Assembly (NCBI GenBank): GCA_028554795.2
Contig: CM068825.1
Span: 97,395,451 to 97,459,450, forward strand
Length of the DNA: 64,000 nt
Source of the DNA: Sinohyriopsis cumingii
Lineage: Eukaryota; Mollusca; Bivalvia; Unionida; Unionidae
Direction: 5' to 3'
Shown: piece after piece, positions 37,450 through 57,430 of the stretch
Layout: the number at the start of each line of letters is the position of its first letter
Position numbering within the stretch: position 1 is the first letter of the stretch
Program-made: the position numbers and the translations under genes
Notes under the pieces: model-generated
Told to the model about the DNA's origin: nothing
The model's database searches: none
What the model saw: the letters and a program-made list of their open reading frames with translations, nothing else

Positions 37450-37863
37450 AGTAGTGAAGTGGGTCACCCTAGCCTCAATGGGAATTAGCATTACAGGACA
37501 CCCCTGGGTCACTCTAGCCTCAATGGAAATTTAACATGGGAAAAAATCATGGGTCACTCTAGCCTCAAGGGGAATTTAACATGGGAAAAAGTCTTGGGTC
37601 ACTCTAGCCTCAAGGGGAATTGAACATGGGGAAAAAGTCTTGGGTCACTCTAGCCTCAAAGGGAATTGAAAATGGATTAGGGTCGGGAACCTATTTTAAT
37701 AGGGTCCCGACCTGAGGGGTCTATGAAAAGGGAACAGGCGAAAACTGAAACAGGGAGGATTCTCTATTTTTTTTTAAAAAAATAAAAAAATAAAAAAGGG
37801 TAGGCAATTGAAAGTCAATCTCTTTTCGAGACCTATGAGTGGCCCTGAAAATGGCCTTTGGGT
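37450..37863. repeat. Polinton left terminal inverted repeat
   Basis: About 413 bp matching the complement of 57018-57430. It holds five tandem copies of a 44-46-bp unit starting GGGTCACTCTAGCCTCAA (37461, 37505, 37551, 37596, 37642), a 32-bp hairpin (37681-37712, GGTCGGGA...TCCCGACC), and at its inner edge a histone-like stem-loop. Confidence 0.93.
37841..37856 (-). terminator. histone-like 3' stem-loop after accessory unit A
   Basis: On the - strand GGCCATTTTCAGGGCC, preceded by CCAAA and followed by ACTCA, then TCTCGAAAAGAGA. One mismatch in the 6-bp stem. It lies about 20 nt after the stop of unit A. Confidence 0.6.
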
Positions 37864-37874
37864 TTCTTCTTCTT

Positions 37875-38459
37875 CTAACTCCTCCACTTCTTCCACCATC
37901 CCCTTATCTTTCCCAAAATTCCTTTCTTCTTCCTCTTCTTCTCCTCTTCTGTTATCCAGTCAGGATGGCCCATCTCTCTAAATTTCTGTTGGATCTTCAT
38001 CCAGTTGTTATTTAATCTTTCAAACTCTAATTTCTTCTTCTTATTCTCTTCTTCCTTTCTCTCTTTGTTCCATTTTTCTTTTATCTTCATCACTTCTACT
38101 TTCATTACCTCTCTAATTAGTTCTTCTGCTTTTATCAACTGGTTACAACCCCACTTTACGTACCACCAGTCAGTCCAATGAAAGTTATTTTCTAGGAAGC
38201 TCCTGACTTCTATGATATGATCCAAGGCTTCCTTTAAAGTACCTACTCTCACTTAAGGTGGGTCAATGAATCCTCTGATTCTTTCTACGTCTTCTTCAAT
38301 CATTCCCCCTATTTGATCTTTTGCTACTCCAAGACTCGTCACATTGTTCAGGCTACCTTCAAATCTTCCTTCCTTATTCAATCTTTCTACTACATAAGTC
38401 CCATCCATGATCCAAAAATAGCTATGTCTCAAATCGTTAAATAATTTTGTCACCTCCAT
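37875..38459 (-). pseudogene. Polinton accessory protein, unit A (charged coiled-coil), one in-frame UAA
   Basis: ATG at 38459 (MEVTKLFNDL) opens a frame that meets TAA at 38253-38255 and continues open in the same frame (VRVGTLKEALDH) to 37875. The second part resembles unit C: a LKEA...VR segment, then EELIRE...EKWNKERKEEE, a Lys/Glu-rich coiled coil ending KIRGWWKKW. TATA lies at 38510-38515, and an upstream box shared with units B and C at 38521-38546. Function unknown. It could be two small ORFs, but shared architecture and frame favour one interrupted gene. Confidence 0.55.
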
Positions 38460-38520
38460 CTTCTTTGTTTATTCCTTAGAATGGTGCGAACGACTAATAC
38501 TGTGGGTTCTTATAGCGAAA

Positions 38521-38546
38521 GCGCGGACGTGATGGAAAAAATCCCC
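38521..38546 (-). promoter_or_regulatory. shared promoter box of the left-arm units (copy A; repeated at 38588-38613)
   Basis: On the - strand GGGGATTTTTTCCATCACGTCCGCGC, with a second copy 40 bp upstream. The same box precedes unit B (39341-39366) and unit C (40205-40230). It contains a CRE-like TCACGTCC and sits just upstream of TATA. Confidence 0.6.
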
Positions 38547-38794
38547 CTAAAACAAAATTTTTATTACCTAGATCATAACCAAACAACGCGCGGACGTGAA
38601 GGAAAACATCCCCTACTTTTCTCATTTCATATGATATACCATCCACATACGTGAAACAGCAATAAACAAACCCCTAATCTACTATCCACACACGCAAAAC
38701 ATTAAAATGAAACCCGAATCTACTATTCACATGAACCAACTTAAGCTCTTACATAACCCAATAATCTACTATCCACACAAACGTACGTGAGCGC

Positions 38795-38801
<7 letters not shown>

Positions 38802-38833
<32 letters not shown>
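38802..38833. repeat. (AC)n microsatellite
   Basis: Uninterrupted CA repeat in the spacer between units A and B. Confidence 0.9.
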
Positions 38834-38835
<2 letters not shown>

Positions 38836-38920
38836 TAAAAAGAGTAAGTGTTTATATTCACACTACTCTACCTACACACATTGGCAAATCGATTACTATA
38901 TCTTTTCTAGAGATTGGGGT

Positions 38921-38936
38921 AGCCCTGAAAAGGGCT
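38921..38936 (-). terminator. histone-like 3' stem-loop after accessory unit B
   Basis: On the - strand AGCCCTTTTCAGGGCT, a perfect 6-bp stem with the TTTC loop of histone mRNAs, preceded by AACA and followed by ACCCCA and TCTAGAAAAGAT. It lies about 90 nt after the unit B stop. Confidence 0.75.
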
Positions 38937-39025
38937 GTTTGTTTTTATGAACTCCATGACACCTGGTTAATTATGGCACCTTCCAGGCCTGGCACCACAC
39001 ACACATCTTCTTCCCCAGTCTCCTT

Positions 39026-39274
39026 TTACCTTTTTTCTTGGGAGTGCAGAGGCGGGATAAGTGGCTCAGAATCCCAATTTTCTGTCTCTGGGATTCTGAA
39101 ATTTCCTCTCTCCTCTTCTTTGTTTCTTCTCTCCTCCTCTTCTTTGTTTCTTCTCTCCTCCTCTTTCATCCTTCCCTCTTCTACGATGGCCTCTGCAGCC
39201 AGCTTATTCACTATACGCCTGGCATATTACAGGTGTACATGAAGTTCAAGCAGTTTAGCTAGTCTGGTGTTCAT
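39026..39274 (-). pseudogene. Polinton accessory protein, unit B, one in-frame UAA
   Basis: ATG at 39274 (MNTRLAKLLELHVHL), TAA at 39227-39229, then the frame stays open through a charged stretch (MKEEERRNKEEEERRNKEEE) to TAA at 39026. The start resembles unit C (KLAKLNEAYVNLH). The promoter box, TATA (about 39329-39335) and 3' stem-loop match units A and C, so it is a third, shortened paralogue. Confidence 0.5.
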
Positions 39275-39340
39275 TCTGGTGGTGTTGATCAATCAACAAG
39301 GGTAGCTAGACTGCCGAACGATTTTTAATTTATACTTAAA

Positions 39341-39366
39341 GCGCAGACGTGATGGAAAACATCCCC
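39341..39366 (-). promoter_or_regulatory. shared promoter box, unit B
   Basis: GGGGATGTTTTCCATCACGTCTGCGC on the - strand. About 70 bp upstream of it matches the unit A upstream region closely, including CCTAGATCATAACCAAACAA on the + strand. Confidence 0.6.
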
Positions 39367-39730
39367 TAAAACAAAATTGATCTTACCTAGATCATAACCA
39401 AACAACGCGCGGACCTAAAAGAAACACTCACTCACTTTTTATACTACCCATCACTATTCTTAAAATTTTTATTAAACAAATAATATACTATCCACATACG
39501 CAAAGCAATCTAATCAATCCCCAAATCTACTCTCCCCACACGTCAAACAACAAAAAACACATGATCATAATCTACTATCCACACAAACTTACGTGAGCAC
39601 TTACAAACACACAATCCTATACACAAACACATACACTCAAACTATAAAAAAGAGTTAGTGTTTATATTCACACTACTCTACATACACACATTGGCAAATC
39701 GATTGTTATTTCTTTTCTAGAGTATTGGGT

Positions 39731-39745
39731 AGCCTTGAAAAGGCT
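39731..39745 (-). terminator. histone-like 3' stem-loop after accessory unit C
   Basis: On the - strand AGCCTTTTCAAGGCT (3-nt loop variant), followed by ACCCAATAC and CTAGAAAAGAAA. It lies about 32 nt after the unit C stop. Confidence 0.6.
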
Positions 39746-39777
39746 GGTTTTTTTTTTTTGTTTGCTATGGCAATCTT

Positions 39778-40137
39778 TTAGTTTCTAAGAATGCGACGTC
39801 CTCTGAGGATAGACTTTCTGACGATAGGTCTGCTTCTTCGGAAAGAGAAGAAGAACTCTTTGGTGTCGATACGACAATCGACAAAGCCTCTCTCAGGTTC
39901 AGGTTCCTGCTGCTGTTGCTGCTGTTGCTGCTCTCTCTGCTGTTTCTGAAGTCTGTACTTCTCTGTCCATTCTTCTTTCTCCCTGTTCACTTCTTCTCTG
40001 AAGAGCTCTTCTATCAGGTCTTCAGTGACTTTTAACATTCTCACATTCTCTATCTCTTCAGGCTTCGGTATCAGACTGTGTCTGACCCTATGCAAATTCA
40101 CGTAGGCTTCGTTTAGCTTAGCTAGTTTGGAGCACAT
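39778..40137 (-). CDS. Polinton accessory protein, unit C (Q-rich coiled coil), intact
   Basis: I take the ATG at 40137 (MCSKLAKLNEAYVNLHRVRH), which gives 119 residues. The frame is open further upstream, but only through the promoter box. Residues about 35-85 are a charged helix (EDLIEELFREEVNREKEEW) running into a Gln tract, and the tail is basic (RRSRPIVRKSILRGRRI). It is the undamaged member of a three-copy tandem family. Function unknown. Confidence 0.6.
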   Translation of the reverse strand: MCSKLAKLNEAYVNLHRVRHSLIPKPEEIENVRMLKVTEDLIEELFREEVNREKEEWTEKYRLQKQQREQQQQQQQQEPEPERGFVDCRIDTKEFFFSFRRSRPIVRKSILRGRRILRN

Positions 40138-40204
40138 CTTCGTAGGAGGATGAGTCGACAATGGATGGTTAGACTGGAAACTCCCCCCGGTTCTTAAAGT
40201 CAAA

Positions 40205-40230
40205 GCGCGGACGTGAAGGAAAACATCCCT
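40205..40230 (-). promoter_or_regulatory. shared promoter box, unit C
   Basis: AGGGATGTTTTCCTTCACGTCCGCGC on the - strand, about 70 nt before the ATG, with a TTTAAG element between. Confidence 0.6.
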
Positions 40231-40359
40231 CTACGGTTTTCGAGCCGCAACGTTCAATGAGTGTCATGAGAGGGATAGTAAGAAGTCAAAGAGCATGAAT
40301 CAACATTCTTATAGCCAAACAAAAGACAAAGGCATTTTTTTTTCAAAACACAACATTTT

Positions 40360-40368
40360 TTTATTCAA
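40360..40368 (-). terminator. poly(A) signal of the capsid/protease transcript
   Basis: AATAAA on the - strand about 100 nt after the protease stop. This contrasts with the stem-loop ends of the terminal-arm genes. Confidence 0.5.
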
Positions 40369-40467
40369 AATCACTTAACACTAACAAACAACTATAACAT
40401 TTTTAACAATAATCCAACAATATAACATCAAACATTTTTTTCAATTCACACTCTACTTTAAACAGGG

Positions 40468-41013
40468 CTAACAACGTTGTGAATGAAATTGTGATTTCCA
40501 CTGTTGGAAGTCATTAGGCCATTGATGGACACTACGTTTCCTAGCTTGAGACAAAAGATAAGCATAATGGTCACAAAACCATTGATCTACTTTCACATCG
40601 TTTCTAGAAGAAGAACGAGGATCAAAATGAGTCACTAAATGTTCTAAGGAATAGCCCAGGCTGCGATGATGCAGAAAATACACACAATATTGTCCACACA
40701 CCAAGGAATCTGTGCTTTGTAATTTCACATTATTGAATCGGGTGGTCTAGGCATTTCTTCTCATAAAGTCAATGATATCGTCTTCCAAAGGAGGCAATCC
40801 GTACGAATCGAAATATTCCACACATCCTTCTTGAGGAAAGTAGACGGCTACCCAGTGGGTTCCTGGGAGATGACTGTCGTCCGTGTTGATGGCATAAGCT
40901 AGATGGTCTTGAGGTTTGCGATGAGACAGTTCATCTTTAGCACAGACGACACTTTTCCAAGAAGCCGTGTACAAACTGTGGTTCAAAAGATAATAAAGTT
41001 CCCAGGTATCCAT
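40468..41013 (-). pseudogene. adenain-type cysteine protease with one in-frame UAG
   Basis: A 181-residue frame from ATG 41013. Adenain-like active site: His53 (GTHWVAVYF), Asp69 (EYFDSYG), Gln99 (LQSTDS) and Cys106 (VCGQYC), with the Gln-Cys spacing of 7 seen in adenovirus protease. It would mature capsid proteins. A TAG at 40747-40749 (codon 89) separates the His/Asp half from the Gln/Cys half, and the frame is open on both sides. Either the copy is dead or the stop is read through. Transcribed with the capsid genes upstream. Confidence 0.85.
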
Positions 41014-41035
41014 TGATTTGTGTTGTTTTTTTTGT

Positions 41036-41539
41036 TCACAGGTAATGATAAGTCATCAATTCGATCCTGACTTTTTGCTTGAAAATGTCTGACAAGTAAA
41101 AGTCCTTTAGATCCGACTTCTTACTCTGGTCAAAGAGAGATTCGATGCGACGGCGCTCCAGAGACGTTAATGGAGGAGAAGAATGTTTATCCAAGCCTTT
41201 ATACCACTCGTTCAACACGAATTCTATCTCCATGACACCCCAAGCTTTGTCCAGATATTCGTCCAATTATTCTTCTTGGCTCAACATCAGACATTTGTCG
41301 TGTTGAATTTGACTGGGATGATCGTTTTGACATCCATAGCATTCTTCCTTGATCAATTCTTTCATTACATCTGTCAGGAATGTAGCAAAACAGGAGACTA
41401 AATGGGCTTCTTGTTCTGGCCATCTTGACTTCATCATGATAACTTCTTCGTCTTGGGATTCTTCTTCTTCTTCCACGGTCTCCTCACATTCCATTTCCAA
41501 AGTTTCTCCACTAGGTAAAGAGGGATAACAGTCTTCCAT
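41036..41539 (-). pseudogene. Polinton CYGC-motif protein with one in-frame UAA
   Basis: ATG 41539, five bases after the capsid protein stop. An acidic N-terminus (EETVEEEEESQDEE) is followed by ELIKEECYGCQNDHPSQIQH and a CLM. From memory, a CxGC...HPSQ...H...CLM pattern recurs in uncharacterised Polinton proteins beside the capsid gene and may bind zinc. TAA at 41267-41269 (codon 91), then the same frame continues LDEYLDKAWGVMEIEFVL to TGA at 41036. Function unknown. Confidence 0.6.
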
Positions 41540-41544
41540 GGCTT

Positions 41545-42861
41545 CTAATAGTCTAGAATGACTTCTCTCAAACTGTTGATTTCTATCGTATTATCGAATT
41601 CTGCATACAGGAGGACGTTCACCGTCTCTGGTAGATTTGTAGTAAACTGAATTTCCACACGAATCTGGCCAGATTTTATAGGGTGGAAATGTCCCTCGTC
41701 GCTGCCTTGGTCTGGAGTGAAATCGAAAGCCCAAAAAGCGTAGCCTCCTGCGTAATCCTCGTACGTAATGCCGTGACTGGTGTTGGTTCCTAACTGACCG
41801 GTAGCTTCGTACAGGGACAAGTACGACCTCAAGTAATTCTTCGCGGCACCAAAGTTAGGTTCGAAAGGTCGGGTACACAAGGTTTTGCCATCGCGACTGA
41901 CTTCAATTTTGGACACATTGAAGGGTTGAAACTCAAAAGGGTTTTCGTTGTAGGCTGCGTTGAAGGCTGAATTCTTGACGATACCAACGATTAAACGCTT
42001 GGGTAACTGTCCTTGGAACAGATAATCTTCGATCATGGATCGCTGTCCAGTGGGAATCGTGAACGTTTTCACTTCCACTCGTCGGATCGGATACTTGGCG
42101 GTCGTTCTGCTCAACGTCTGACTGATGTCGTTTCCCACTTTAGGCAACACTTCCACACGACGCACGTAGAGTCTGGCTTCTTGAATGATAGTTTTGTAAG
42201 TGGCATCAGCAGCAGCCATTAAATGGAAAGAGGCACTGCTACGATTCAGTCTCAGGCGGATATCCACACCGTTCAACAAATATTTTTCTTGTAACCACAT
42301 GTCTAGATGCAAGCGATCCATCAGTTCTAAACTACGACGTTGTGCAATTTTCGTTCTTCGTTCTACAAATCCCGTTAAATTTGAATCATTCCCAGCAATT
42401 GCAATGGCGCCAAACTTAGTCGCCTTGTCAGGTTTCCATACCACGCAAGCATCCAGATGAGTGTTCTTGGCTTCTTTTCCGTACGTCAAGAGATTTTCCA
42501 GGTAGGCCCGATAAGGGTAAGTATCCATGCTGCTGCTGACCAGTTTGTTATTCAAGTACAAGTCCACTTCGCTAAACAAGGAATGGATGAAATTATTGAC
42601 GGGAGCTACTGCTTCATCAGCGTCTAGGTTAGCGTTGGGTGGTTCGATCACTTTCACTTTCAAGTACAGGTAACTGCTATTCAGATCGATGTAATCTTCG
42701 GGCTGTCCTTTGATTTCAAACTCGATGGGAGCGGAATCCGTCAAAGAGGAGACGGGATGAAATTCCACCCACTGGGATTCTTGTATGGTCATCATGGTGG
42801 GGGGCATGGCAAACAGTTCCAGTTCTGACTTGGAACAAGCGCAGGACTCTCGGTGCATCAT
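41545..42861 (-). CDS. Polinton major capsid protein (double jelly-roll)
   Basis: 438 residues, intact. Typical Polinton hexon-like features: N-terminal QWVEFHPVSSLTDSAPIEF, YLYLKVKVIEPP, NNFIHSLFSEVDLYLNNKLV, YPYRAYLENLLTYG near residues 125-140, and a conserved C-terminal end in ILDY. It forms the capsid shell. It starts 13 nt after the preceding gene's stop and is followed five bases later by the CYGC gene, so it probably lies in a polycistronic late transcript. Confidence 0.93.
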   Translation of the reverse strand: MMHRESCACSKSELELFAMPPTMMTIQESQWVEFHPVSSLTDSAPIEFEIKGQPEDYIDLNSSYLYLKVKVIEPPNANLDADEAVAPVNNFIHSLFSEVDLYLNNKLVSSSMDTYPYRAYLENLLTYGKEAKNTHLDACVVWKPDKATKFGAIAIAGNDSNLTGFVERRTKIAQRRSLELMDRLHLDMWLQEKYLLNGVDIRLRLNRSSASFHLMAAADATYKTIIQEARLYVRRVEVLPKVGNDISQTLSRTTAKYPIRRVEVKTFTIPTGQRSMIEDYLFQGQLPKRLIVGIVKNSAFNAAYNENPFEFQPFNVSKIEVSRDGKTLCTRPFEPNFGAAKNYLRSYLSLYEATGQLGTNTSHGITYEDYAGGYAFWAFDFTPDQGSDEGHFHPIKSGQIRVEIQFTTNLPETVNVLLYAEFDNTIEINSLREVILDY

Positions 42862-42874
42862 TTTTTTCTGTTTT

Positions 42875-43300
42875 TCAATAATCGAAAACGTCTAAGTCTC
42901 GAACGGTTCTTCTTTTCTTTGTTTTTCTAGCTTTAGACGTGTGAAGTCTGGTGAAAGGGTGTTTTCTTCGTCGTCTCTTTCTGCCTTGTCCTTGCTGAAT
43001 GCCTGACTCGGTAGCGTGCAGGGCATTTATAGGTGTGTCTCGTCGACCCAAAAGGTCTTTACCCGTTTGCAGCAAGACATTTTTGCCTGCCCTCAAGAAA
43101 GCTTCTTTGGGGTTTTGTTTGTCGATGATGACATTTTGGAGAAATTCTTTGCCATGTGTCAATGCCGCATCTTTCAAGGCGTGCAATCCGCGTGTCACCA
43201 TCGGTTTCAACACCGGGGCCACCGAACGAAAAGCCGATTTTAGCATATCTCCTAAACCGTGTCCTCGCTGTCGAGCAACGCCTCGGTACACTGGATACAT
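42875..43300 (-). CDS. pVI/pX-like minor capsid or core protein
   Basis: 141 residues. The N-terminus has RQRGHGLGDMLKSAFRSVAP followed by LKPMVTRGLHALKDAALTHG, an amphipathic helix region like the small protein beside the Polinton capsid gene, and the C-terminus is a basic tail (RKRRRRKH, RKTKKRR). Probably membrane-active or DNA-binding inside the particle. It starts 3 nt after the penton stop, in the same frame. Confidence 0.65.
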   Translation of the reverse strand: MYPVYRGVARQRGHGLGDMLKSAFRSVAPVLKPMVTRGLHALKDAALTHGKEFLQNVIIDKQNPKEAFLRAGKNVLLQTGKDLLGRRDTPINALHATESGIQQGQGRKRRRRKHPFTRLHTSKARKTKKRRTVRDLDVFDY

Positions 43301-43303
43301 GAC

Positions 43304-44239
43304 TTACGAGTCGTGAGAGAACCGTTTTCGAAAATGGAGTTTCACCGTGACTTTTCCTTTGGTGAATGGAATATTTTGTCCCAGATCTCCTTTTATAGCA
43401 ATGTTGACCGTGTCCAAATACGACTTGCTGACAGGCAAATAGTGAGGATGTACAAATTCGCGGTGGACGTGGTAAGTATTTCCACCTTCCTCGTCAGCGA
43501 CCGTGGTAGAATCCACTTTGAAAGGAATGACAAGCAGTAACGGTACGGAGGTGTGTCCCACCACGTTGTACTCCACCACATGTGAGTACACAAATATCAA
43601 ATTCAGTCCTTGGTTCAGTTCTACCGGGGCAGGAAAAAACTTGGCAAAAGAATCGTTGTCGTAAATGACTGCTGATTCGAGTTTTTGTTCTACTATCTTC
43701 CTCAGCTCCATGTCCCCGCCCAACATGTCAAACAATTCAGGACAAAATAAAATGGACATGATTTTACCCCTTCAGGAAATTTCATGAGGAAGCGACGAGC
43801 TACTTTATGGTACTCCAGGGTGACACTTTTTTTTGACACTCTCCAAAGCTTTCAGAAACACGACATTAAATCTGGAGGCTATGGTGCTCACCAAATGTTG
43901 ACCACTAAAATAATAGCCTGGAGGAATGAACAAGTGATAGGTGGTCCACTTTTGATTTTTTGTGCTAGGGGTTTTCTTGTCATATTTGACATGGGTGTCC
44001 AAGTACTGTTGCAATGAATCGTCATGAACTTCCACCGTAAAAAATTTTTGATTGGGAAGTACATTGAGGACTTGGGTTGGGTGAATGATTTTTACTAAAG
44101 CCACTTCCCAATGGGCTTCGTGATCTAATGGGATGGCCTGAGGTAATTTGGCCGTGTAACAGCACAACGTGTTGTTGGGAAACACCTCCATGGAACTGTC
44201 ACTGGGTAAGCTTAAGTAAAATTGGTTTTGGTGACTCAT
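43304..44239 (-). pseudogene. penton (minor capsid) protein, frameshifted
   Basis: The N-terminal half (44239-43805) starts FYLSLPSDSSMEVFPNNTLC and has WEVALVKIIHP, the usual Polinton penton start. The C-terminal half (43759-43304) has FCPELFDMLGG, YSHVVEYNVVGHTSVPLLL and the terminal GKVTVKLHFRK. The linking segment (about 43835-43765) is coding in another frame, entered at an A8 run near 43827 and left near an A4 run at about 43762. Two compensating single-base indels in A runs therefore explain the split. This is either decay or assembly error. It forms the capsid vertices. Confidence 0.8.
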
Positions 44240-44649
44240 AATTCCAGAGTTCTGTGGCTGTCCGAGGGGTTACTGGACGTCAGAGGCGTGTCTCCGCCTA
44301 AAATGGGGTTGTTGTTGTTGTTATTGGAGTGGTGACTGGCACTGGCACTGGACACAAGGTTCCCGTGGTTCCCGTTAGAGGAGAATTTCAGGGAGGGATT
44401 GGGAAGCAGGTAACCGATGCAACTGCTCAATAAAATGGTCCACAATTGTTTGTTTCCTTGTTGCAAACTCAAATTGGCAATGGCTGCCCCGATGACACAA
44501 TACACCACGAAGATTTGGCAGAAAAAGACGATTTGCGTTTTAGGCACACGTTCTCCACGCCATACCCACAAGGGTTGTTTTTGTAAATCTTGCACAGAAG
44601 AACTGGGTGAAGGAGTGGTCGACGTATCTGCGTCTGTGTGAAAGGGCAT
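44236..44649 (-). CDS. two-transmembrane Polinton protein
   Basis: ATG 44649 (MPFHTDADT). After a Ser/Thr/Pro-rich start come two hydrophobic segments: VFFCQIFVVYCVIGAAIANL (about residues 43-62) and LWTILLSSCIGYLLPNP (about 70-86), then a Ser/Asn-rich tail. A VFFCQ...LSL...LW..LLSS.IGYLLPNP pattern is familiar from Polinton/adintovirus membrane proteins. Its stop overlaps the next ATG as ATGA. Role unknown; possibly membrane remodelling. Confidence 0.65.
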   Translation of the reverse strand: MPFHTDADTSTTPSPSSSVQDLQKQPLWVWRGERVPKTQIVFFCQIFVVYCVIGAAIANLSLQQGNKQLWTILLSSCIGYLLPNPSLKFSSNGNHGNLVSSASASHHSNNNNNNPILGGDTPLTSSNPSDSHRTLEL

Positions 44650-44654
44650 GATGG

Positions 44655-45764
44655 TCACTTCTTTTTATAGTCGATGACTTGCGAAGCGTCGATCCAAGAA
44701 TCAAAACTGGGTGGATATCCTTTCCAACGTACTTTGACTTCTTTGACACGTCGTTTGCCTACTTTACGGGTTCTGCGTTCGAGAATGCTTTCGATGTCGT
44801 ACACGTCGTCTTCTTTTTTGGTGACACGTTGTAACTCGGGCAAAATAAACGTTCCTTTGAGCACTTCTCCGTTCATGTCTTCCAATTTATAGACGGCAGG
44901 ATGACGGCCATGCACTCGTCCAGTGACACGAAACAATTCGGTCGTCCAGTTAGGTAAGTAACCTTTGTCGAAAGTGCGTTTGGTTTTGCCAATGCTCCCC
45001 CAATCTCCTACGTCCAACACTCCACTTTTCTTGGGGACAGCCCTCGTCGGGGACGTACCAAACAGGCGCTCAAACACCATCACTTCGTTCTTGGGAGTCA
45101 CTTCTTGCGGGACACGTCCAACGCTTCGATGGTAAGATTGGTTGTACGCTTACACCAGGTGTGGTAAGATGTCGATGTACTTCAGAGTGTGGTGATGCGT
45201 AAAATATTTCCACATGCGTTCTTTCAAAGTGCGTTGAAAACGTTCCATGATGCTGGCTTTGGTTACGGGATTCTCCGTGGTAAAAAAATGAATGTCACGT
45301 TTCTTTAATTCTTTTTGCAAAGCTTGGTTCAGAAATTCGGTACCTTTGTCCGTTTGCCATCGAAGAGGGTGACGACCGCTTTCTTTCAACACCCGTTGCA
45401 GGGCTCGCACTAACACGCTGCTCGATTTGGAAGTCAAGGGTACGACCCAGGCAAATTTGGAAAAGACGTCGATGACACAAAACAAATATTTGTAGCCGCG
45501 ATTGTAGCTGGCCAAATGAGAGACATCGGCTAAATCGGCTTGCCATTGATGATCGATGCCTTCCACTTGGATGCGACTTCTGGTAAACTTGCGTCGAATG
45601 GGTTTGTGTAAAGTGTAGGTAGCTTGTTCTGGCAACAATCGTTGCACTTGAGGTAAACGGAGACTTTTCAGTCGAGTTTTGGCAGCACGATACAATTTTT
45701 GAACTCCTGCGTAACCTGCAGGATGGGAGGGATCGTAGTAAATGCTGGCTAAGACTTTTTCCAT
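44655..45764 (-). pseudogene. DD35E integrase with chromodomain, one in-frame UAA
   Basis: 370 codons from ATG 45764. The N-terminal HPAGYAGVQKLYRAAK region is followed by the rve core: D77 (WQADLADV), D139 (RWQTDKGTEF) and E174 (SIMERFQRTLK), giving D-62-D-35-E. The C-terminal part has VYDIESILERR...VKVRWKGYPPSFDSWI, a chromodomain that may steer insertion to chromatin. TAA at 45150-45152 (codon 205) falls just after the core, where related integrases continue AYNxSYHRS; that sequence is present after the stop in frame. It integrates the element and makes the 6-bp duplication. Confidence 0.88.
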
Positions 45765-45785
45765 TTTTTTGTGTTTGTTTGTTTG

Positions 45786-46418: not shown

Positions 46419-46467
46419 GGGGTTGTCACGGGTCGATTCTGAGATCTTGGGACTTCCGAGGGCCTTT

Positions 46468-46872: not shown

Positions 46873-46905
46873 CTTTGAGTCTTCAGCACCAAAAACACTG
46901 ATACC

Positions 46906-48664: not shown

Positions 48665-48732
48665 AGTGTTAGGAATGTCACTTGTGACACGAAAACAAAC
48701 AAGACAAGAGTTTATATACTTTTTTTCAGGAC

Positions 48733-48738
48733 ACGTTT
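48733..48738 (-). terminator. poly(A) signal AATAAA
   Basis: Follows the stop of the membrane protein gene (48749) by 10 nt and lies just upstream of the ATPase TATA box. It separates two transcription units. Confidence 0.55.
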
Positions 48739-48748
48739 ATTGAATGTT

Positions 48749-49280: not shown

Positions 49281-49501
49281 GTTGAATGGGGTGGTAAATA
49301 CTGTTCGTAAAGAGTCCACAAGGAATCGGCTGGTAAACGAAATCCCAGAAAACAAGTCACTAAGACACACACCACTTGTCGACCCAAATTGAATGGATAC
49401 AGTTCTTGTAATAATCGATAGTAATGATCCACGGTTTGAAAATGGTCATTGAGTTCCTTCCACGGAATCTGTTCAATCACATGTGATAAAAACCTCGGCA
49501 T
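49277..49501 (-). CDS. small accessory protein, unknown
   Basis: 74 residues (MPRFLSHVIEQIPWKELNDH). It lies between the paralogue-like genes and is in the same frame as the upstream ORF, separated by TAA and four codons. A TATAAAA overlaps the upstream stop but is only 12 nt from the ATG, too close to serve it. Confidence 0.4.
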   Translation of the reverse strand: MPRFLSHVIEQIPWKELNDHFQTVDHYYRLLQELYPFNLGRQVVCVLVTCFLGFRLPADSLWTLYEQYLPPHST

Positions 49502-49513
49502 GACAGCCTGTTT

Positions 49514-49963
49514 TTATATTCTCTTTTTTCGGATGCAATACACGTACTTTCTAGCCAGACATCTTCGTTCTCCAGTAGGAAATTTAAATGCTTCAAATTG
49601 TAACCTAAACTTCAAACTTCGTTTAGGAGTTTCGTCTTTCGCTAAGTAGATTCCACGTAAAATATGTTTGTAATCCTTTAACTTGTCTTCTTCAATGCCT
49701 TGCACTAGGTGAATCTCGAAGTAACCAAAATTATGAACATGTCGATCATTGGCGACCTCAAAATTTTGAACAATGTCTGACCACTGAAACAAATTCTGAC
49801 GAATCAGTTATTTTATACCATTCAGGTACCAGTGGTTAAAGATCTGGTGACGTAACGAATGCAACTGTTCTTTACGTTTGACTTGTATTTTGACCAGCTC
49901 TCGGTAAATGCGTTCTCTTAACTCCACAGGCAAGGCGCGAATGTTCTCTTGTAAAGTATCCAT
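49514..49963 (-). pseudogene. LPxEL/F-box-like accessory protein with one in-frame UAA
   Basis: ATG 49963 (MDTLQENIRALPVELRERIY), TAA at 49808-49810 (codon 52), then the same frame runs LIRQNLFQWSDIVQNFE to 49514. IRALPVELRERIYREL parallels IESLPKELQEKIYKEV of the next gene, and QWSDIVQNF parallels QWSEITYYV, so both halves belong to one paralogous gene that has been interrupted. Confidence 0.55.
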
Positions 49964-49984
49964 GAATAGGTCAGTCCGTACAAT

Positions 49985-50377
49985 TCACAATCTTCTTCTA
50001 GAGCAAAAGTAATCCACATAGTAAGTAATTTCTGACCACTGCCATTCAGGGTAACGTCCAAGAATCTCACTGAACTCTTTTGATGTAAACGGTCTAGAGT
50101 GATATAATAGGACGAATGCACACTTGACCCAGAGAAATCTAACACACTGGTTGACTTTTTTCACTTTCCTCTTATGAATTTCTCGGCACAAAAGTTCTAC
50201 AGTCACCCATTGAGATTTCACTCTGGCAAACCCATGCCAAACTTCCTTGTAAATCTTCTCTTGCAGTTCTTTAGGTAATGATTCAATATCTTTTTTGAAA
50301 TGAAGTTTAAATACTGGTCTCGGTGATGTCCAACATTTGATTCCTAGCCAGTCTGGTTTCTTCTTTGTCAACGACAT
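49985..50377 (-). CDS. LPxEL/F-box-like accessory protein
   Basis: 130 residues. DIESLPKELQEKIYKEVWHG (about 30-49) resembles the first helices of F-box-type motifs, which would recruit an SCF ubiquitin ligase; the match is short. The C-terminus has PFTSKEFSEILGRYPEWQW. It lies right after the BIR gene, and the two could act together on host cell death, by inference from context. Confidence 0.5.
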   Translation of the reverse strand: MSLTKKKPDWLGIKCWTSPRPVFKLHFKKDIESLPKELQEKIYKEVWHGFARVKSQWVTVELLCREIHKRKVKKVNQCVRFLWVKCAFVLLYHSRPFTSKEFSEILGRYPEWQWSEITYYVDYFCSRRRL

Positions 50378-50388
50378 GGTAAGTTACT

Positions 50389-51024
50389 TCAATGTCTCGG
50401 TCCCACTAAGGGTAAGTAATGACAATTCGGTGACCATCGAGCATGTTCTACGTAGGCCGAATCTTGCGGTTCCCAGTGGTGAAGTGACACACCGCAACTG
50501 AAGCACTTGACTTTATCTCCTTCGCCCAAGTAGAAAAATCCCGCTCTGGCTAATTCTTCGGGGGTCGGGCCTCCCAGATACTTAGGCCATTTTCCTTTGA
50601 ACGATTGCAGACGATTTTCAAAGTCGTAGTATTCCGACAAACGCACAGGGAACGAATATTCATCTTTCACAGGTTCGTTTCGATGAGGGTTGGGTGACAT
50701 GGACAGGACATTGCTCAGGGCTGGATGACATCCGTAGGGAGGTAGACGTGAAGGTAGACATTCACCTTTAAAACGAAACCCAGTAAAGTATCCCAGAAGA
50801 CGAGTGGCATCGCTTTCGCATCCCTCAGGTTTGACACGCACAGCATCACTTTCCATGATAGGGGTAGTGAGAACAAAGTTCCCATGATGCTTTACGGCAT
50901 CGCGAAGGTCACAACGTACAGCATCGTTCCCATCGCAAGGCTCACAATCGCATTCCACTTCAGAGCCCCCAAACTTGAATTGTGCCTTTCTAAACTTGTT
51001 TTGTGTTTCTCTGAAAGTATTCAT
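50389..51024 (-). CDS. BIR-domain (IAP-like) protein
   Basis: ATG 51024 gives 211 residues. A single BIR domain at about 136-209: FENRLQSFKGKWP, LARAGFFYLGEGDKVKCFSC, and zinc ligands C174, C177, H194 and C201 (CX2C-X16-H-X6-C). No RING follows. The N-terminal 130 residues are Cys-poor with acidic and Pro-rich parts and are not recognised. BIR proteins of insect DNA viruses block caspases, so this may delay host apoptosis. A TATA box (TATATAAAAA, about 51081-51092) lies inside the end of the polymerase gene. Probably acquired from a host. Confidence 0.88.
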   Translation of the reverse strand: MNTFRETQNKFRKAQFKFGGSEVECDCEPCDGNDAVRCDLRDAVKHHGNFVLTTPIMESDAVRVKPEGCESDATRLLGYFTGFRFKGECLPSRLPPYGCHPALSNVLSMSPNPHRNEPVKDEYSFPVRLSEYYDFENRLQSFKGKWPKYLGGPTPEELARAGFFYLGEGDKVKCFSCGVSLHHWEPQDSAYVEHARWSPNCHYLPLVGPRH

Positions 51025-51056
51025 CTTGTTCACTTGGTCTTGGTAGTCACAATGAA

Positions 51057-54000
51057 CTATCGATCTTGCCTAGGGTTCCTTTTTATATACAGACCAATAC
51101 CGACGTGTCCATACGGTAAGGTGAAATGATTGGGAAGTCGCACTCGCTTCTGGTACACGATTTGATAGACTTTTTCCAAGGGTCGACTGACGATGTGGTG
51201 AGTGGGTAAACGTACAATCTTGTTCGGTTGATAGGTGGTCACTTTAAAGTGCTCATCCTCTTTCAATGCCCCAAAGTTGACCACACGACTGGTACGATAA
51301 TTCAGAGTCAATCCTTTCACTTTACACTTCGTGTACACTTCTCCTTGTGGGTCCCGGTATTCGTAGCCGTAATTTTTTGGATCGCCACTGACGAAACTTA
51401 GAATCTTGTCGTCGGGATGCTCGTCTGTCCAGACTCTTAAACGGTCTCCTTCGATGTCAGGGTGCCGTTGACTCGGGTGATGGGTGTGAATGCAACTGTC
51501 CGTGTCAAAGTACAGGATGCGTTCCCCTAACAGTTCTAAAGCTTCGTACAATTTTAAGCGAGCATGAGCTGTCACGTAAGCCGCAATGATGACATTTCCA
51601 AAAGGGTCGTCTTGTACAAAGTCCAGATCTTCTTCGTAATTGACCAAGACCAAGATCAAATCCTCGCGAACGACGTCCACGTGTTTCATGAATTTGGTTT
51701 TGTCGTGAATCATCTGAAAGTAGCGGGAAGGTTCTGTCAAATATTCCGTCTTGGGTAAACACGGTCGTTGTGCCATTTTTCCCCACAAGCAATTTAACAT
51801 CACTTTGGCAAACGATCGCCTGCCTTCGTTTTTCTCGATGTGGTCTAAAGTGATGCCTTCTTGTTCCCGGTATTTCTCTTTGAATTTCTTTTGGTCTTCG
51901 GGAGTGTGACACCAGGAAGAATAGCCGCTGGCTTCTTGTTTCAGTTTCAAAAAGGCATCCACGTAGTCGGCGAAAATGCTTTTCTGCGTGGGGTCACCCT
52001 TGTGGTATTGTTGTGTCTTGGGAAAGTGACAAATTTCGTACACTTCTAACAGTTGATATCCCATGTCCAGAGCTTTGAACAATTCTACGCTGACCCACGT
52101 CCCCGTCAAGGCGCGTTCTTCCTGGGTGTGATGGCAAGGTTGGTCTTGGTTGCACGTGTCGGCACAAGTACGGCACAAAGGAAACATCAGTTTGCCTTGA
52201 CAATGGTGAGGTAAGACGGGATGGCACAAGTCCGTGGGAGGCAAAACTTTGCACTTGATCAAGCCTTCGTATTGTCGAATGTTTTTCAGGTCGATGTGTT
52301 CCGTGAACAATTGTGGGTGCCCTGCAGGAAAGCAACAATATTTGCACACGTAGGGATACAGCGAACACACGTCCAAATATTTGATTTCTTCCCCTTTCTC
52401 TTCGTCGGCTTGGTACAGCAAACAGGTGGCATTGGTCCTTCCTCCGTACAAACTATCCCTCGGGTTCAGGGGGTCCATGAACTGGTAACTTTCCACGAGG
52501 CGTTTAAACTCGGGATCGGTTTTCTAACGGTGGTCGTATTCGTGTTCCCACATTTCCACCACTTGGTATCCTTCCTGTTCTAACTTTAGGCGTCGCTGAC
52601 AAGTGTCCTGGTACAAGTCTTCCATGGTTCGTTGTAAAAACTGATTTTTAGTGCCACGGTCAGAATAACAGACGGGACATCCGTGAAATAAGCAACCGTT
52701 AAACTCGTACACGATCTTGGGGTTTTCTAAGTCCCAGCCATCGACCGAATGCGTTCCGATGGTCTTTTCGCCCCCTCCGTTGCGGGCATGCTGAATCCAC
52801 TTGTCTTCCTTGTCGCACAAGTAATGTAACCAGCGTAGGGCTTTGACCGAGTATTGACGTTTGACATAGTTGGTCGTTTGAGGACTGATGACAGCCACGG
52901 TATTTTCAGGCATGAATCGTTGTCGATACACTAAGGAACACGCTTTGGCAATGGTGCAAGCTTCTTTTAAAGGATCGACCCCTCCGTGTTCCATGAACAG
53001 TTCTCGAAATTTTCCACAGCAACGTCGTAAAATGTCCACGTCGGAACGACAATACTTTAACATTTCTTCCTGAAAGTCGAAAGGGTCGGAGGCGTGAGCC
53101 TGGTACCAAGCGTAGAAAGCTTCTCGTTGTTCGGTACGCATGTTGTCGGGGTCGTAATAGTGAGTCTCATGTAAATGGGGTAGAACGACGTGTTGATTGG
53201 CTTCCGTATTGAAAAAGTGTGGAAAGTACCCTTTAGCCATTTCTGTCATTCCAAACGTTTTAGGCATTCGACTCAAAGGCATGGCCAAGTAACTCATCGA
53301 ATCTTTAAACTGCACTTGTCCCACTTGCATGAAAATGATTTTGGCTCCGTTCAAAATCACTTTAGGACGTTCGGTGCCATGTTCCGTATAGTACCTCAAA
53401 AGAAACTGTCCATCGTATCCGGAGAAATTGTGAGCCATCACCGTGGCATGACGATGACAATCTCCGTAACGTTCGATGTCCTCTTGGCTCCACGTCTTGT
53501 CGATGGGGTCTAAGACCAATTGGGCAAAATCAGCTAGCGTGTTCGATCCCCGAAAGATTTTTTCACGCCCTCCAGGAATCTTGCTGCAGTGAGGGCAATG
53601 ACTGAAGATAGGTTCCTGAATGCACTTCTCGCACGCTCGATGAGCCACGCAGAAATTAGGAACGTGAATGCCAGTCTCTTGCATGCATTCGAAATCGAAA
53701 AAGATGAAATTGCCTTTCTTCTTGTGTCCATCCTCTTTCTCTGGTTGGGGTTGGTATTTTTGCACGTAGCATTGGTGTTGCAGGTCCACGATGTGGTGAT
53801 AAATGTGACATTTTTTCTTTCCTGAACATAGGTGTGCCTTGGCATTATTGGCACGTAGGCCTTGTCCACACGTGGGGCACAATCTCAGCAGTTGACAAGC
53901 GCATTTCTTCTGTGAACCTTGCGTCTTCAAATGCTGTTGGTAACAGGTAGGGCTGACAAACGTGCGCAGACAAGTGAAACAGTGCACTGGTTTTTGTCCT

Positions 54001-55112
54001 TCGCTCTACCAGGGTGGAGAGGCCAAACATCCTGAGCATTTCGATCCACACTGCTTGTGTTGTTCTCGATTGTTATAGCCATAGTCACATTTTTCACAGT
54101 AATAAACATATCCCAGGAATCCAGTGATAGTGGTAATGGTATCGAAATGGTCATCGTGATGATAAAGGTGAATGTATTTTCCATCCTTAAAATCTTGACC
54201 TCGAAACAACAGAGGCCCACGCATTTCTTGAGGATGCACTTTCAAGGTGTAGCGTGGAGCTAAGGCATCTTGCAATTTTTGCATTTCAGGAATGCCACAG
54301 GGTTTGTCTTTGGGCAAGCCAGCTTGTCGTAACAGGAGTTCTGCTTCGTTTCGTTGTTTGGCTCTGTCCGATTGTCGAATAGTTTTCCAGGCTCTTTTCC
54401 GTTCTACCGTGTAGTTCTTGTTAACATAGGTTCGTCCCACCAGGATGGCCCTAGCTAAACACATCTGGTCTTGAGGGTTGTGAATTCGGACGAGACTTGT
54501 TTTGGTGCTGCGAAGCTCGTCCACCAATAACATCTTTTTGCGTCCAGTCCCTTGAGGAGGAGAGACGTGGGTCATGTCCAGTGTGGCTTTTCCATCGGTG
54601 ATGTCAAACTGGTCATTAGATTGTTGCACATGTTGAATGTTGTCCATGACTTTGGAAGCGGTCAATTCTGCAGGGGTGCTAAACTCGATCCAAACAGGGG
54701 ATTTCAAACCGTCGTGTTGTATGGAGAGTCTCAAGCGATCGTCTTCTTTGGGCTGACATTGTCGCTTGAGTGTGGTGAGCAAAGAATCCCACACCCCGGT
54801 GATGAACCCTTCTGCTTTCTCTAACGGTACTTCGGACTTGAAATCTTTAAACTTCACCGTGTATTTGTAATCCATGGTTCTAAATTTTCTAGAGGAGCGC
54901 TTTTCCGTCTCTCGAATGGAATAGTATTTTTCAGGGTTGACTAAGGGTGGCGAACTTTGTTTAGAGGGCTTGGATTCTGGTTCACTCATGTCCTCTTCAA
55001 AATCACTGGCATGAATTTGTGCCAAGACTTCAGCCCTGGTACGAGGCGATAGATCACGTTTCTGCCTCTTACTTTCTTCTTCTTTCTTCTTAAATGAATT
55101 GGATCGTTTCAT
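51057..55112 (-). pseudogene. protein-primed family B DNA polymerase with two in-frame UAGs
   Basis: A 1,351-residue frame from ATG 55112. The N-terminal region (1-370) is of Polinton type, then comes a Cys/His-rich segment. Exonuclease motifs: DFE at about 473-475, HNFSGYDG at about 561, YCRSD at about 687. Polymerase motifs: DVCSLYP (914-920), KVMLNCLWGK (1103-1112) and YFDTDS (DTD at 1203-1205). TAG codons at 54006-54008 (codon 369, inside the Cys-rich segment) and 52524-52526 (codon 863) break it, with the frame intact on both sides. It would replicate the element from its protein-capped ends. Confidence 0.93.
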
Positions 55113-55245
55113 CTTGAGTGAAAACGTCAAATGACTCAAGTTTAAACACCATGGACTAATTTATAGTCGTGACAGACCAGCGTATATAAAAGGGCGTGTG
55201 TCTTGTCCTTTCACTATTCATTTCACTCTCAAACCGAGCACAACG
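55113..55245. promoter_or_regulatory. divergent promoter between PolB and the zinc-knuckle gene
   Basis: A leftward TATA (CTATAAATTA, about 55158-55167) lies about 48 nt before the PolB ATG. A rightward TATA (TATATAAAAG, about 55182-55191) lies about 58 nt before the ATG at 55246. The two core promoters are back to back. Confidence 0.65.
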
Positions 55246-55740
55246 ATGGAAGAGACTACCCAGATGGAACGTTTCATCAGAGCTTTGCGAGGGGTCATTA
55301 GAAAATTCTCTTCAGACCAGCCGACGGACTACTCTCCTTCCTTTCGAGATAAAAGTCAAGATACTTGCTATATCTGTCAGAAGAAAGGGCATTGGTCTTC
55401 AGAGTGTCCAGACCGTCAAAAAAGAAAAAAGGGGTTAGAAAAGACAAAAGTCAAGATACCTGTTATTATTGTCAAGAAAAAGGACATTGGTCCCCAGATT
55501 GCCCAAAAAAGAAACAAGAGGAGTCAGAAGAAGAGAGGGATTCTTCAGAGAAAGAAGAAGAAGAAGAGGAAGAAAGCAGACATGTGAAAAAAAAAAAAGA
55601 AAGAGGAGAAGAAAAGAAGAAGGGAAGTAAGTGAGGAGGAAGAGGAGGAAAAGACTGTGACGGTGAAGAAATTGAAAAAAAAAGAGAGACTAAACAAAGA
55701 AACTGAAGTAGTGTATGAAGTTTTTAAAGTTATTGGGTTG
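55246..55740 (+). pseudogene. double zinc-knuckle (CCHC) Lys-rich protein, frameshifted
   Basis: ATG 55246 (MEETTQMERF). First knuckle CYICQKKGHWSSEC in this frame. A second, CYYCQEKGHWSPDC, is 90 bp later in the +2 frame, so a shift lies in the A-rich run at about 55417-55440. A second shift near 55590-55640 would lead to the final frame ending VFKVIGL at 55740. The two knuckles are a recent DNA duplication. It probably binds single-stranded nucleic acid. Cause may be decay, homopolymer error, or (less likely) programmed slippage. AATAAA at 55776-55781. Confidence 0.6.
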
Positions 55741-55775
55741 TGAATTGTGAATTGAATTGTAACTATTGATAAAAG

Positions 55776-55781
55776 AATAAA
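55776..55781 (+). terminator. poly(A) signal of the zinc-knuckle gene
   Basis: AATAAA, 35 nt after the last frame's stop. Confidence 0.5.
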
Positions 55782-55940
55782 TTAGGTAAAAAAGGTAAGT
55801 GTCTTTGGGTTTTGATTTTAAAATAAGAACGTACACTCACACACACTCATACACGCGTACTATAGGGGTAAAATGGGTTGTTTTTTAGTTTGAATGGATG
55901 TTGGCAATTGAAAGTCTATCTGTTTTCGAGACACGTGGGT

Positions 55941-55956
55941 GGCCCTGAAAAGGGCC
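55941..55956 (-). terminator. histone-like 3' stem-loop after the right-arm leftward gene
   Basis: On the - strand CCAAAGGCCCTTTTCAGGGCCACCCA: perfect 6-bp stem, TTTC loop and the ACCCA tail of histone mRNAs, then TCTCGAAAACAGA about 10 nt on. It lies about 25 nt after the stop at 55982. Confidence 0.82.
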
Positions 55957-55981
55957 TTTGGTTTTGGGTGTAGGGGTGAGC

Positions 55982-56548
55982 TTAAGCAATCAACTTTAAC
56001 TGCCTTAAGCCTTTGCCACGGCCAAGGCCTGCTGCTGGACTGCGTACTGTTGATGATGATGATTTGGTTGAAATCACTAAGGGTGGTACGGTAGACTTAG
56101 TCACAGAGTTGGCGTGTTTTGCTCGGGAAGGTCGTATTCTCTTCGGTCGTAATAAAGAAGTCTGATACATTTGTTTCAGACTTCTTAACGCCGCTAAAAT
56201 GTCTAACAGTACCGTGACCGTTTGATTTTCACACCCTTGTTTCTTTGCTGCTGCTTCTTCTTGTTGCTGTTTTTTTCTTACCTCTTCTTCTTGCTGTTGT
56301 TGCTGTAGGAGAAAAGCTTGTTCCGCTTCCTTTTGCTGTTGTATAAATTTCTCCAATTCTTCTTTCTGTCTCTGTCTAAAATTCTCCACGTGCGGTAATG
56401 AAGGAGACGAAGGTTCCGGAACAAATTCTTGCGAGGTAAGAAAATCCACAAAATCCCAGTTCACCTCTTCTGAAAGTAAGTCCGGGTTCCCTTGGGCGGT
56501 CTCCACTGCTGGTGCATCCCAATGGATCGTTTTCTGAGTTTCCGTCAT
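55982..56548 (-). CDS. Polinton right-arm accessory protein (Q/E-rich coiled coil)
   Basis: 188 residues from ATG 56548 (MTETQKTIHWDAP). An acidic N-terminus is followed by a long helix (RQRQKEELEKFIQQQKEAEQ through QQQQQEEEVRKKQQQEE, about 57-104), a LLDILAALRSLKQMYQ segment and a basic Ser-rich tail. Not recognised. Composition and 3' stem-loop resemble left-arm unit C. TATA at 56597-56604, about 50 nt before the ATG. Confidence 0.6.
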   Translation of the reverse strand: MTETQKTIHWDAPAVETAQGNPDLLSEEVNWDFVDFLTSQEFVPEPSSPSLPHVENFRQRQKEELEKFIQQQKEAEQAFLLQQQQQEEEVRKKQQQEEAAAKKQGCENQTVTVLLDILAALRSLKQMYQTSLLRPKRIRPSRAKHANSVTKSTVPPLVISTKSSSSTVRSPAAGLGRGKGLRQLKLIA

Positions 56549-56596
56549 GTTGAAAAAACTGTCACATGGATTGCCTACACACAGGCGCTAGCGAAT

Positions 56597-56725
56597 CTAT
56601 ATAGACCACTTGACGTCACAGACTGCTCTCTTCCGATTGGACGTGGGCTGACTGAATTTTGTAACGCGTGTTTGGATTGGTCAATGAACTCAATCCGTTT
56701 CAATCCTTCCTCTACCTATAAATAA
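56597..56725. promoter_or_regulatory. divergent promoter with CRE and inverted CCAAT boxes
   Basis: Leftward TATA CTATATAG (56597-56604), a perfect CRE TGACGTCA (56611-56618), two ATTGG boxes (about 56635-56639 and 56675-56679) and a rightward TATA (CTATAAATAAGG, 56716-56727). This arrangement resembles replication-dependent histone promoters. Confidence 0.65.
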
Positions 56726-56768
56726 GGGCAGTTCACTGCATTGATTCACCTGTTCTCGGCGCCTCAAG

Positions 56769-56999
56769 ATGTGGACCACAGTCGAATCATCCACCCTTGT
56801 TTCTTCAGTGATGCTTAGGACGGACATGCTAATGTATGTCCGATCCAAGTGGACAGTTGTCCACAAGTCAGACACCAGTCTGTGGATACGAAGAGTATAT
56901 GTGGAAAGACAATTATGCCTCAAGAGGACTCTGATTTATGGCTATGCAGTAAGACGCAGCTTGAGGACAAGAAGATGCCGCAGATGCCCTTTATGTTAA
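56769..56999 (+). CDS. small right-end protein of the Polinton, unknown
   Basis: 76 residues (MWTTVESSTLVSSVML), Val/Leu- and Arg-rich, ending RRSLRTRRCRRCPLC. No family recognised. Supported by TATA 52 nt before the ATG and a histone-like stem-loop 24 nt after the stop. An overlapping ORF from ATG 56910 (MPQEDSDLWL) is an alternative. Confidence 0.4.
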   Translation: MWTTVESSTLVSSVMLRTDMLMYVRSKWTVVHKSDTSLWIRRVYVERQLCLKRTLIYGYAVRRSLRTRRCRRCPLC

Positions 57000-57017
57000 G
57001 GGCATATTAACATAAAT

Positions 57018-57430
57018 CCAAAGGCCCTTTTCAGGGCCACTCATAGGTCTCGAAAAGAGATTGACTTTCAATTGCCTACCCTTTTTTTTTTTTTACTTTT
57101 TAAAAAAAAAATAGAGAATCCTCCCTATTTCAATTTTCACCTGTTCCCTTTTCATAGACCCCTCAGGTCGGCACCCTATAAAAATAGGGTCCCGACCCTG
57201 TTCTATTTTCAATTCCCCTTGAGGCTAGAGTGACCCAAGACTTTTTCCCCATGTTCAATTCCCCTTGAGACTAGAGTGACCCAAGACTTTTTCCCATGTT
57301 AAATTCCCCTTGAGGCTAGAGTGACCCATGATTTTTTCCCCATGTTTAATTTCCATTGAGGCTAGAGTGACCCAGGGGGGGTCCTGTAATGCTAATTCCC
57401 ATTGAGGCTAGGGTGACCCACTTCACTACT
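57018..57430. repeat. Polinton right terminal inverted repeat
   Basis: Complement of 37450-37863. It contains the five-copy 44-46-bp repeat and a hairpin at 57166-57197. Confidence 0.93.
57023..57038 (+). terminator. histone-like 3' stem-loop after the right-end gene
   Basis: GGCCCTTTTCAGGGCC, perfect stem and TTTC loop, preceded by CCAAA and followed by ACTCA and TCTCGAAAAGAGA. It lies at the inner edge of the TIR. Confidence 0.82.

Follow-up and report, generated by a model that had tools for sequence, protein, structure and literature searches.

The window analysed here, a stretch of 64,000 nucleotides (nt) from the bivalve Sinohyriopsis cumingii (assembly GCA_028554795.2, contig CM068825.1, positions 97,395,451 to 97,459,450 of the forward strand), contains a Polinton/Maverick element, which we recognise as a Polinton by its terminal inverted repeats of ~416 base pairs (bp), the hexamer CAGGCC on either side of them and its gene content. 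Our subject is the 3′ ends of five genes in the arms of this element, each of which is followed by what looks like a histone-type 3′ processing signal, that is, a stem-loop with a purine-rich element downstream of it. The element is framed as follows (positions are those of the window).

37450 to 57430, no strand assigned: Polinton/Maverick element, 19,981 bp, with terminal inverted repeats, 6-bp target duplication, integrase, ATPase, type-B DNA polymerase and capsid homologs
37444 to 37449, no strand assigned: target-site duplication CAGGCC (6 bp), left copy
57431 to 57436, no strand assigned: target-site duplication CAGGCC (6 bp), right copy
37450 to 37865, no strand assigned: left terminal inverted repeat, ~416 bp, its inner edge just upstream of stem-loop a
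57014 to 57430, no strand assigned: right terminal inverted repeat, ~416 bp, its inner edge just upstream of stem-loop e

The five arm genes, which we call a to e, are listed below, each with its stem-loop and the element resembling the histone downstream element (HDE) that follows it. Scores are those of matches to the Rfam family RF00032 (Histone3), for which the cut-off is 34 bits, and dN/dS is the median ratio of nonsynonymous to synonymous substitution rates among copies of each gene; protein lengths are in amino acids (aa).

37875 to 38252, minus strand: arm gene a, open frame of 125 codons, basic; dN/dS 0.22
37841 to 37856, minus strand: stem-loop a, 3′ of arm gene a, one broken pair in the window copy; 26.6 bits, below the cut-off (match 37816-37861, minus)
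37821 to 37827, minus strand: HDE-like GAAAAGA of a, 13 nt past the stem
38971 to 39165, minus strand: 3′ open frame of arm gene b, short or worn in the window copy; dN/dS 0.22
38921 to 38936, minus strand: stem-loop b, 3′ of arm gene b; 31.1 bits, below the cut-off (match 38895-38941, minus)
38901 to 38907, minus strand: HDE-like GAAAAGA of b, 13 nt past the stem
39778 to 40137, minus strand: arm gene c, 119 aa; dN/dS 0.24
39731 to 39745, minus strand: stem-loop c, 3′ of arm gene c, 15 nt with a 3-nt loop in the window copy; 18.7 bits, below the cut-off (match 39706-39750, minus)
39711 to 39717, minus strand: HDE-like GAAAAGA of c, 13 nt past the stem
55982 to 56548, minus strand: arm gene d, 188 aa, a conserved protein with 20 database homologs; dN/dS 0.48
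55941 to 55956, minus strand: stem-loop d, 3′ of the 188-aa arm gene; 35.7 bits, above the cut-off (match 55916-55961, minus)
55921 to 55927, minus strand: HDE-like GAAAACA of d (one mismatch), 13 nt past the stem
56769 to 56999, plus strand: arm gene e, 76 aa, strongly basic; dN/dS 0.12
57023 to 57038, plus strand: stem-loop e, 3′ of the 76-aa arm gene; 37.5 bits, above the cut-off (match 57018-57063, plus)
57052 to 57058, plus strand: HDE-like GAAAAGA of e, 13 nt past the stem

All five stem-loop sequences named in the original prediction are present at the coordinates and on the strands it gave, and the purine element that it placed about 10-15 nt downstream is found in five of five cases 13 nt past the stem. 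Of the five loops, all of which it described as having the histone consensus, d and e pass the RF00032 cut-off, and a, b and c score under it. The loops follow the stop codons at 18 nt (a), 34 or 89 nt (b, depending on the frame), 32 nt (c), 25 nt (d) and 23 nt (e). Chance hairpins are ruled out by shuffles of the window (the strict histone consensus occurs twice in the window as against a mean of 0.05 over 100 shuffles, and the loop-derived pattern RGCCNTTTTCANGGCY four times as against 0 in 100 shuffles) and by the reversed-pattern genome counts given below.

The five loops are related to one another. Stem-loop a, in one terminal inverted repeat, has its copy in stem-loop e, in the other; b and c fall in a 150-nt repeat that is 83% identical, and a 66-nt block around the loop is common to d and e. 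Five independent origins are ruled out, terminal-repeat and arm duplications accounting for the copies; because a and e are terminal-repeat copies and b and c a duplicated block, we count about three loop lineages.

To what extent do these signals resemble those of the host? In the one host histone repeat that we read (locus L055), each of five genes, named by eye as H3, H4, H2B, H2A and H1, has an RF00032 match of 35.0-39.4 bits. The loop of the host H2B is identical to Polinton loops d and e, and the host purine element, CTAGAAAAGA in four of the five genes and CCCGAAAAGG in H2A, equals that of the Polinton in those four. GAAAAG starts 13 nt past the stem in H3, H4 and H2B and 14 nt past it in H2A and H1. 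Recent capture from the host's own histone genes is nonetheless not favoured, because none of the five host genes read has the ACCCA tail of the Polinton; the Polinton signals may stem from an older capture or from convergence.

That two of the loops lie within the terminal inverted repeats, and that the conserved block extends ~45 nt past the stem, would both be accounted for if the block were a DNA cis element for replication, transposition or packaging, with a hairpin that binds protein near the ends and spread along the arms by duplication. Such a site, however, would have no need to match a histone loop, nor to adopt the layout and spacing of the host's own histone genes, and three of the five sites are internal. 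Moreover, at every loop in the window the TTTC-type loop, A-rich 5′ flank, ACCCA-type tail and GAAAAGA are all on the coding strand, 18-34 nt past a stop codon. We regard a DNA cis element as highly improbable, and histone-type 3′ processing signals as the preferred reading.

The signals are very abundant in the 2.9-Gb host genome, in which the window belongs to contig 2. RF00032 gave 589,472 first-look candidates there, and all of the 75 that were scored lay above the cut-off (best 45.6 bits); Polinton-arm flanks were assigned by flank class in each of the 30 loci extracted from these 75, and the 30 loci together with the window's five loops yielded 62 loops, which divide into the flank classes a (14), e (20), d (16) and b/c (12). 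The exact loop core GCCCTTTTCAGGGCYAY occurs 40,568 times and, with GAAAAGA at the right spacing, 37,955 times (94%), counts that include host H2B copies, which fit the pattern; either pattern reversed occurs 0 times. The longer pattern fits two of the five window loops (b and e). Spacing between matches also recalls the window: among the first 100 along contig 1 (6.23 Mb), 21 of the 24 short same-strand gaps measure 768-919 nt (810 nt between b and c in the window; the other three, 1,031-1,365 nt), three of the five divergent minus-plus gaps measure 1,092-1,106 nt (1,082 nt between d and e; the others, 2,065 and 18,215 nt), and 34 gaps run from arm to arm over 13.3-18.1 kb. These 100 matches form 31 clusters at gaps below 18.5 kb, and extrapolation from the 37,955 occurrences gives ~12,000 elements. 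The capsid protein has 28,748 first-look candidates in the host genome, 96 of which were scored and found to be 89-100% identical; by eye, 76 of the 96 are without an internal stop. By capsid candidates and loop cores alike, the Polinton family is very greatly expanded in this genome.

At 100 sites whose selection used the loop but not the purine element, GAAAAGA (no more than one mismatch) lies 13-15 nt past the stem in 99 (in 91 at exactly 13), compared with 0.7% in shuffled sequence. The 5′ flanks at 100 sites are chiefly CCAAA (47), AAAAA (18), AAAAC (15) and CAAAC (10), and the 3′ tails ACCCA (76), ACCCC (9), AGCCA (5) and ACTCA (4). Open frames of at least 60 codons end within 40 nt of 65 of 93 sites, as against 9% of 3,944 random places, and 10 of the 93 have no such frame within 150 nt.

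Sheer number could suggest another role for the loops. With ~40,000 exact cores, far above the histone genes found (662 histone-like first-look candidates, of which 150 were scored), they might act post-transcriptionally or as decoys, SLBP binding serving to guide translation or to tie up the histone machinery while 3′ ends are formed otherwise. That the purine element is retained at its proper distance in 94% of exact cores counts against this, because the element serves U7-directed cleavage and would be needless for SLBP binding alone, and we find a decoy function extremely unlikely by comparison with 3′ end processing.

Loci chosen by their loops cannot measure loop retention, and for this reason we located gene 3′ ends by upstream sequence alone, in stretches taken from the other end of 20 of these elements (in L040, L047 and L050 the arm was absent or truncated). 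Among the 42 ends found without using the loop, 32 have an exact loop, seven a loop with one difference and three none. For arm gene b, 11 of 12 loops are exact, although its mean upstream identity of ~78% predicts, by simple arithmetic, an unchanged 16-nt stretch in ~2%; for c the exact 16-nt loop is present in 12 of 13 anchored ends of other copies. This retention bears on the idea that the signals are relics, histone 3′ ends captured long ago and spread by duplication or hitch-hiking, with the arm mRNAs polyadenylated today. The copies are indeed related by descent, conservation in a repeat can reflect recent spread, and AATAAA is found 300-400 nt past the stops of b and c. Yet outside the terminal repeats, at the ends of b, c and d, all 30 loops have at most one difference and 26 are exact despite an upstream gene identity of only 71-95%, and in the a and e classes, whose loci were partly chosen by the loop, mean pairwise identity is 0.99-1.0 in the loop as against 0.40-0.48 at 45-100 nt downstream. 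AATAAA is, besides, rarer past the loops than in shuffles (within 300 nt in nine of 100 copies, against 17). A relic therefore strikes us as very unlikely, and signals maintained for 3′ processing as the better account.

Judging by median dN/dS values of 0.12-0.48, all five reading frames in the arms appear to be genuine genes; these values derive from open reading frames (ORFs) taken as found within a length range and from sequence pairs with dS between 0.05 and 1.5 (pairs outside these limits were discarded), some of those retained being near saturation. The samples comprised 18 of 21 ORFs and 125 pairs for e, 20 of 26 and 37 pairs for a, 14 of 18 and 84 pairs for b, seven of 10 and 20 pairs for c, and 11 of 18 and 49 pairs for d. 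All five frames of the window are basic (isoelectric points 9.0-11.2). No convincing family was found for the arm proteins in Pfam, nor for four of them in PHROGs. We considered a and c as possible paralogs, but BLASTP gave just a 21-residue match (E 0.023), which was not used. Common to the left-arm genes are four copies of an upstream repeat of the GCGCGGACGTGATGGAAAACATCCC type (38505-40233), perhaps a promoter element.

How the other genes of the element end is a related question. Three poly(A) signals are placed as follows.

40360 to 40365, minus strand: AATAAA where the leftward capsid gene cluster apparently ends
48736 to 48741, minus strand: AATAAA where the polymerase/BIR gene cluster apparently ends
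55776 to 55781, plus strand: AATAAA after the zinc-knuckle gene (55246-55587)

On the gene strand AATAAA is also found at 38468 and, in the spacers that follow c and b, at 39468 and 38560. Neither AATAAA nor ATTAAA occurs in the 500 nt past the stop codons of the genes for capsid and ATPase, and the claim of the original prediction that these genes have AATAAA in place of the loop consequently fails gene by gene, holding at most at the apparent cluster ends. A strict AATAAA contrast for every central gene is thus ruled out.

The core of that prediction, that the arm genes carry histone-type 3′ processing signals, has fared better, and we consider that its reading of the loops and purine elements is strongly supported at the sequence level by their genome-wide fixation, their loop-independent retention and their near-identity in sequence and spacing to the signals of the host histone genes. 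It is very probable, to judge from the arrangement of these motifs, that expression of the Polinton is split between two host mRNA 3′ end pathways, histone-type for the five arm genes and AATAAA for the other clusters. Sequence establishes that the signal is there, that it is conserved and that it agrees with the histone genes of the host; from the same motifs we infer that the arm mRNAs would be cleaved by way of SLBP and the U7 small nuclear ribonucleoprotein (snRNP), would lack poly(A) and would be expressed in S phase. Each of the five arm genes, of which three are on the left and two on the right, carries a complete signal a few tens of nt past the stop, composed of a stem-loop of 6 bp and 4 nt, an ACCCA-type tail and GAAAAGA 13 nt past the stem, where U7 small nuclear RNA (snRNA) pairs in histone pre-mRNA. 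In the mechanism that we propose, host SLBP would bind the loop, the U7 snRNP would pair with the purine element and CPSF73 would cleave past the tail, such that the arm mRNAs would exit without poly(A) and be made, stabilised and translated mainly during cellular DNA replication, when the element may replicate too. The remaining genes appear to form clusters ending in AATAAA. As the outermost signals sit in the terminal repeats, both end genes share one 3′ end module. It also seems rather likely that a two-pathway element in ~12,000 copies, with histone-type ends outnumbering those of the host, could draw on SLBP and the U7 snRNP when expressed.

Several observations weigh against this interpretation. 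Loops a and c look worn in the window copy. AATAAA lies 304 nt past the stop of c and 405 nt past that of b, and ATTAAA 174 nt past that of a; a poly(A) fallback is therefore possible for these three genes. The coupling of the arm genes to S phase is something that we infer throughout, and the LxCxE motif, which would tie arm proteins to cell-cycle control, is absent from the window's five arm frames. In the host genome, the best Rfam match for U7 snRNA scored 29.3 bits (E 0.27) and was without the expected anti-HDE sequence; a guessed U7 pattern gave 69 matches as against 39 when reversed, a second guess gave none, and no clear gene emerged. Such weak U7 matches mean nothing, because the U7 search at E ≤ 10 also matched in 12 of 14 control genomes. 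An exon-wise Pfam search of the host gave no clear SLBP, the best fragment scoring 21.4 bits (E 0.72). Lastly, at four capsid loci (L001-L004) from symbiont-type genomes with probable host contamination, where the arms appear missing or decayed, there was no loop at E ≤ 0.5, and the four genomes holding these loci contained one RF00032 match, at 24.6 bits, below the cut-off. As a separate observation, the guessed U7-like pattern recurs in the host at steps of ~139 kb and 163 kb (C12:94561922-94980150 and C17:3028640-3354310).

Searches beyond the host added little. Neither the capsid protein nor the d protein nor any of the loop patterns had a match among viral contigs, and in 210 genomes of the family to which one of the four symbiont-type genomes belongs (that genome included) there was no match at E ≤ 1e-5, the control being likewise silent.

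As for the rest of the element, DNA_pol_B_2, rve and Pox_A32 are Pfam matches over their cut-offs, and the Polinton also codes for a chromo domain, a BIR-domain gene and a zinc-knuckle gene. The capsid protein had no match in the Pfam search; its assignment rests on 867 database homologs, several labelled 'F54H12.2-like', a name that we take to go with Polinton capsid proteins, and among the 120 listed of the 867 the named relatives are mostly bivalve proteins, e.g., from Mercenaria and oysters. Because the type-B DNA polymerase (51057-53684) and the integrase core with the chromo domain (44655-45764) are each split over two frames, the window copy looks defective. The BIR domain, of the inhibitor-of-apoptosis kind, is encoded at 50389-51024 on the minus strand (Pfam E 2e-24). 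Inside the terminal repeats (37450-37680 and 57194-57420) are about five tandem units of 45-46 nt with the motif TGGGTCACTCTAGCCTCAA, and elsewhere in the window a long short-tandem-repeat array (30231-33177) reads as repetitive open frames (MTSMHTLIPNNIL).

Replication-dependent histone genes are known by their stem-loop and the element downstream of it. If our interpretation is true, the Polinton would be a plain example of how a selfish element gains access to the histone mRNA pathway, with a complete, host-matched signal on five non-histone genes, and would provide a testable link between expression of the element and DNA replication. It would also explain why poly(A)-selected RNA sequencing could miss the arm genes, and the many copies would form a large natural sequence set showing which positions the processing machinery requires. 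We found no description of Polintons with histone-type 3′ ends in the open-access literature, including the accessible part of PMC11071296, most subscription journals lying outside this coverage.

How, then, does the element compare with known systems? With Polinton/Maverick elements and adintoviruses it shares terminal inverted repeats, a 6-bp target duplication, a type-B polymerase, an rve integrase, a chromo domain, a packaging ATPase and a capsid protein. With the replication-dependent histone 3′ signal (RF00032 and the downstream element) it shares the 6-bp/4-nt stem-loop, the A-rich 5′ flank, the ACCCA-type tail and a purine element 13 nt past the stem, a spacing which is the same as in host H3, H4 and H2B, although the Polinton version ends non-histone genes of a virus-like element and stands beside AATAAA-ended clusters. 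In detail, the first pair is A-T in the Polinton b/c class whereas it is G-C in the five host genes read, and the tail is ACCCA at 76 of 100 Polinton sites whereas those host genes have ACACA, ATACA, ACAAA or ACTTT. In PMC9756948, the tail that remains 3′ of the loop is ACCCA and the histone complex is active in S phase, and by sequence the Polinton signals share the cis features described there. Closer to our host, the histone genes of the bivalve Lucina pectinata, as described in PMC6210712, have a stem-loop near the stop codon and, in some genes, a purine-rich element nearby; those are histone genes, however, whereas the Polinton arm genes that appear to carry the same kind of signal are not.

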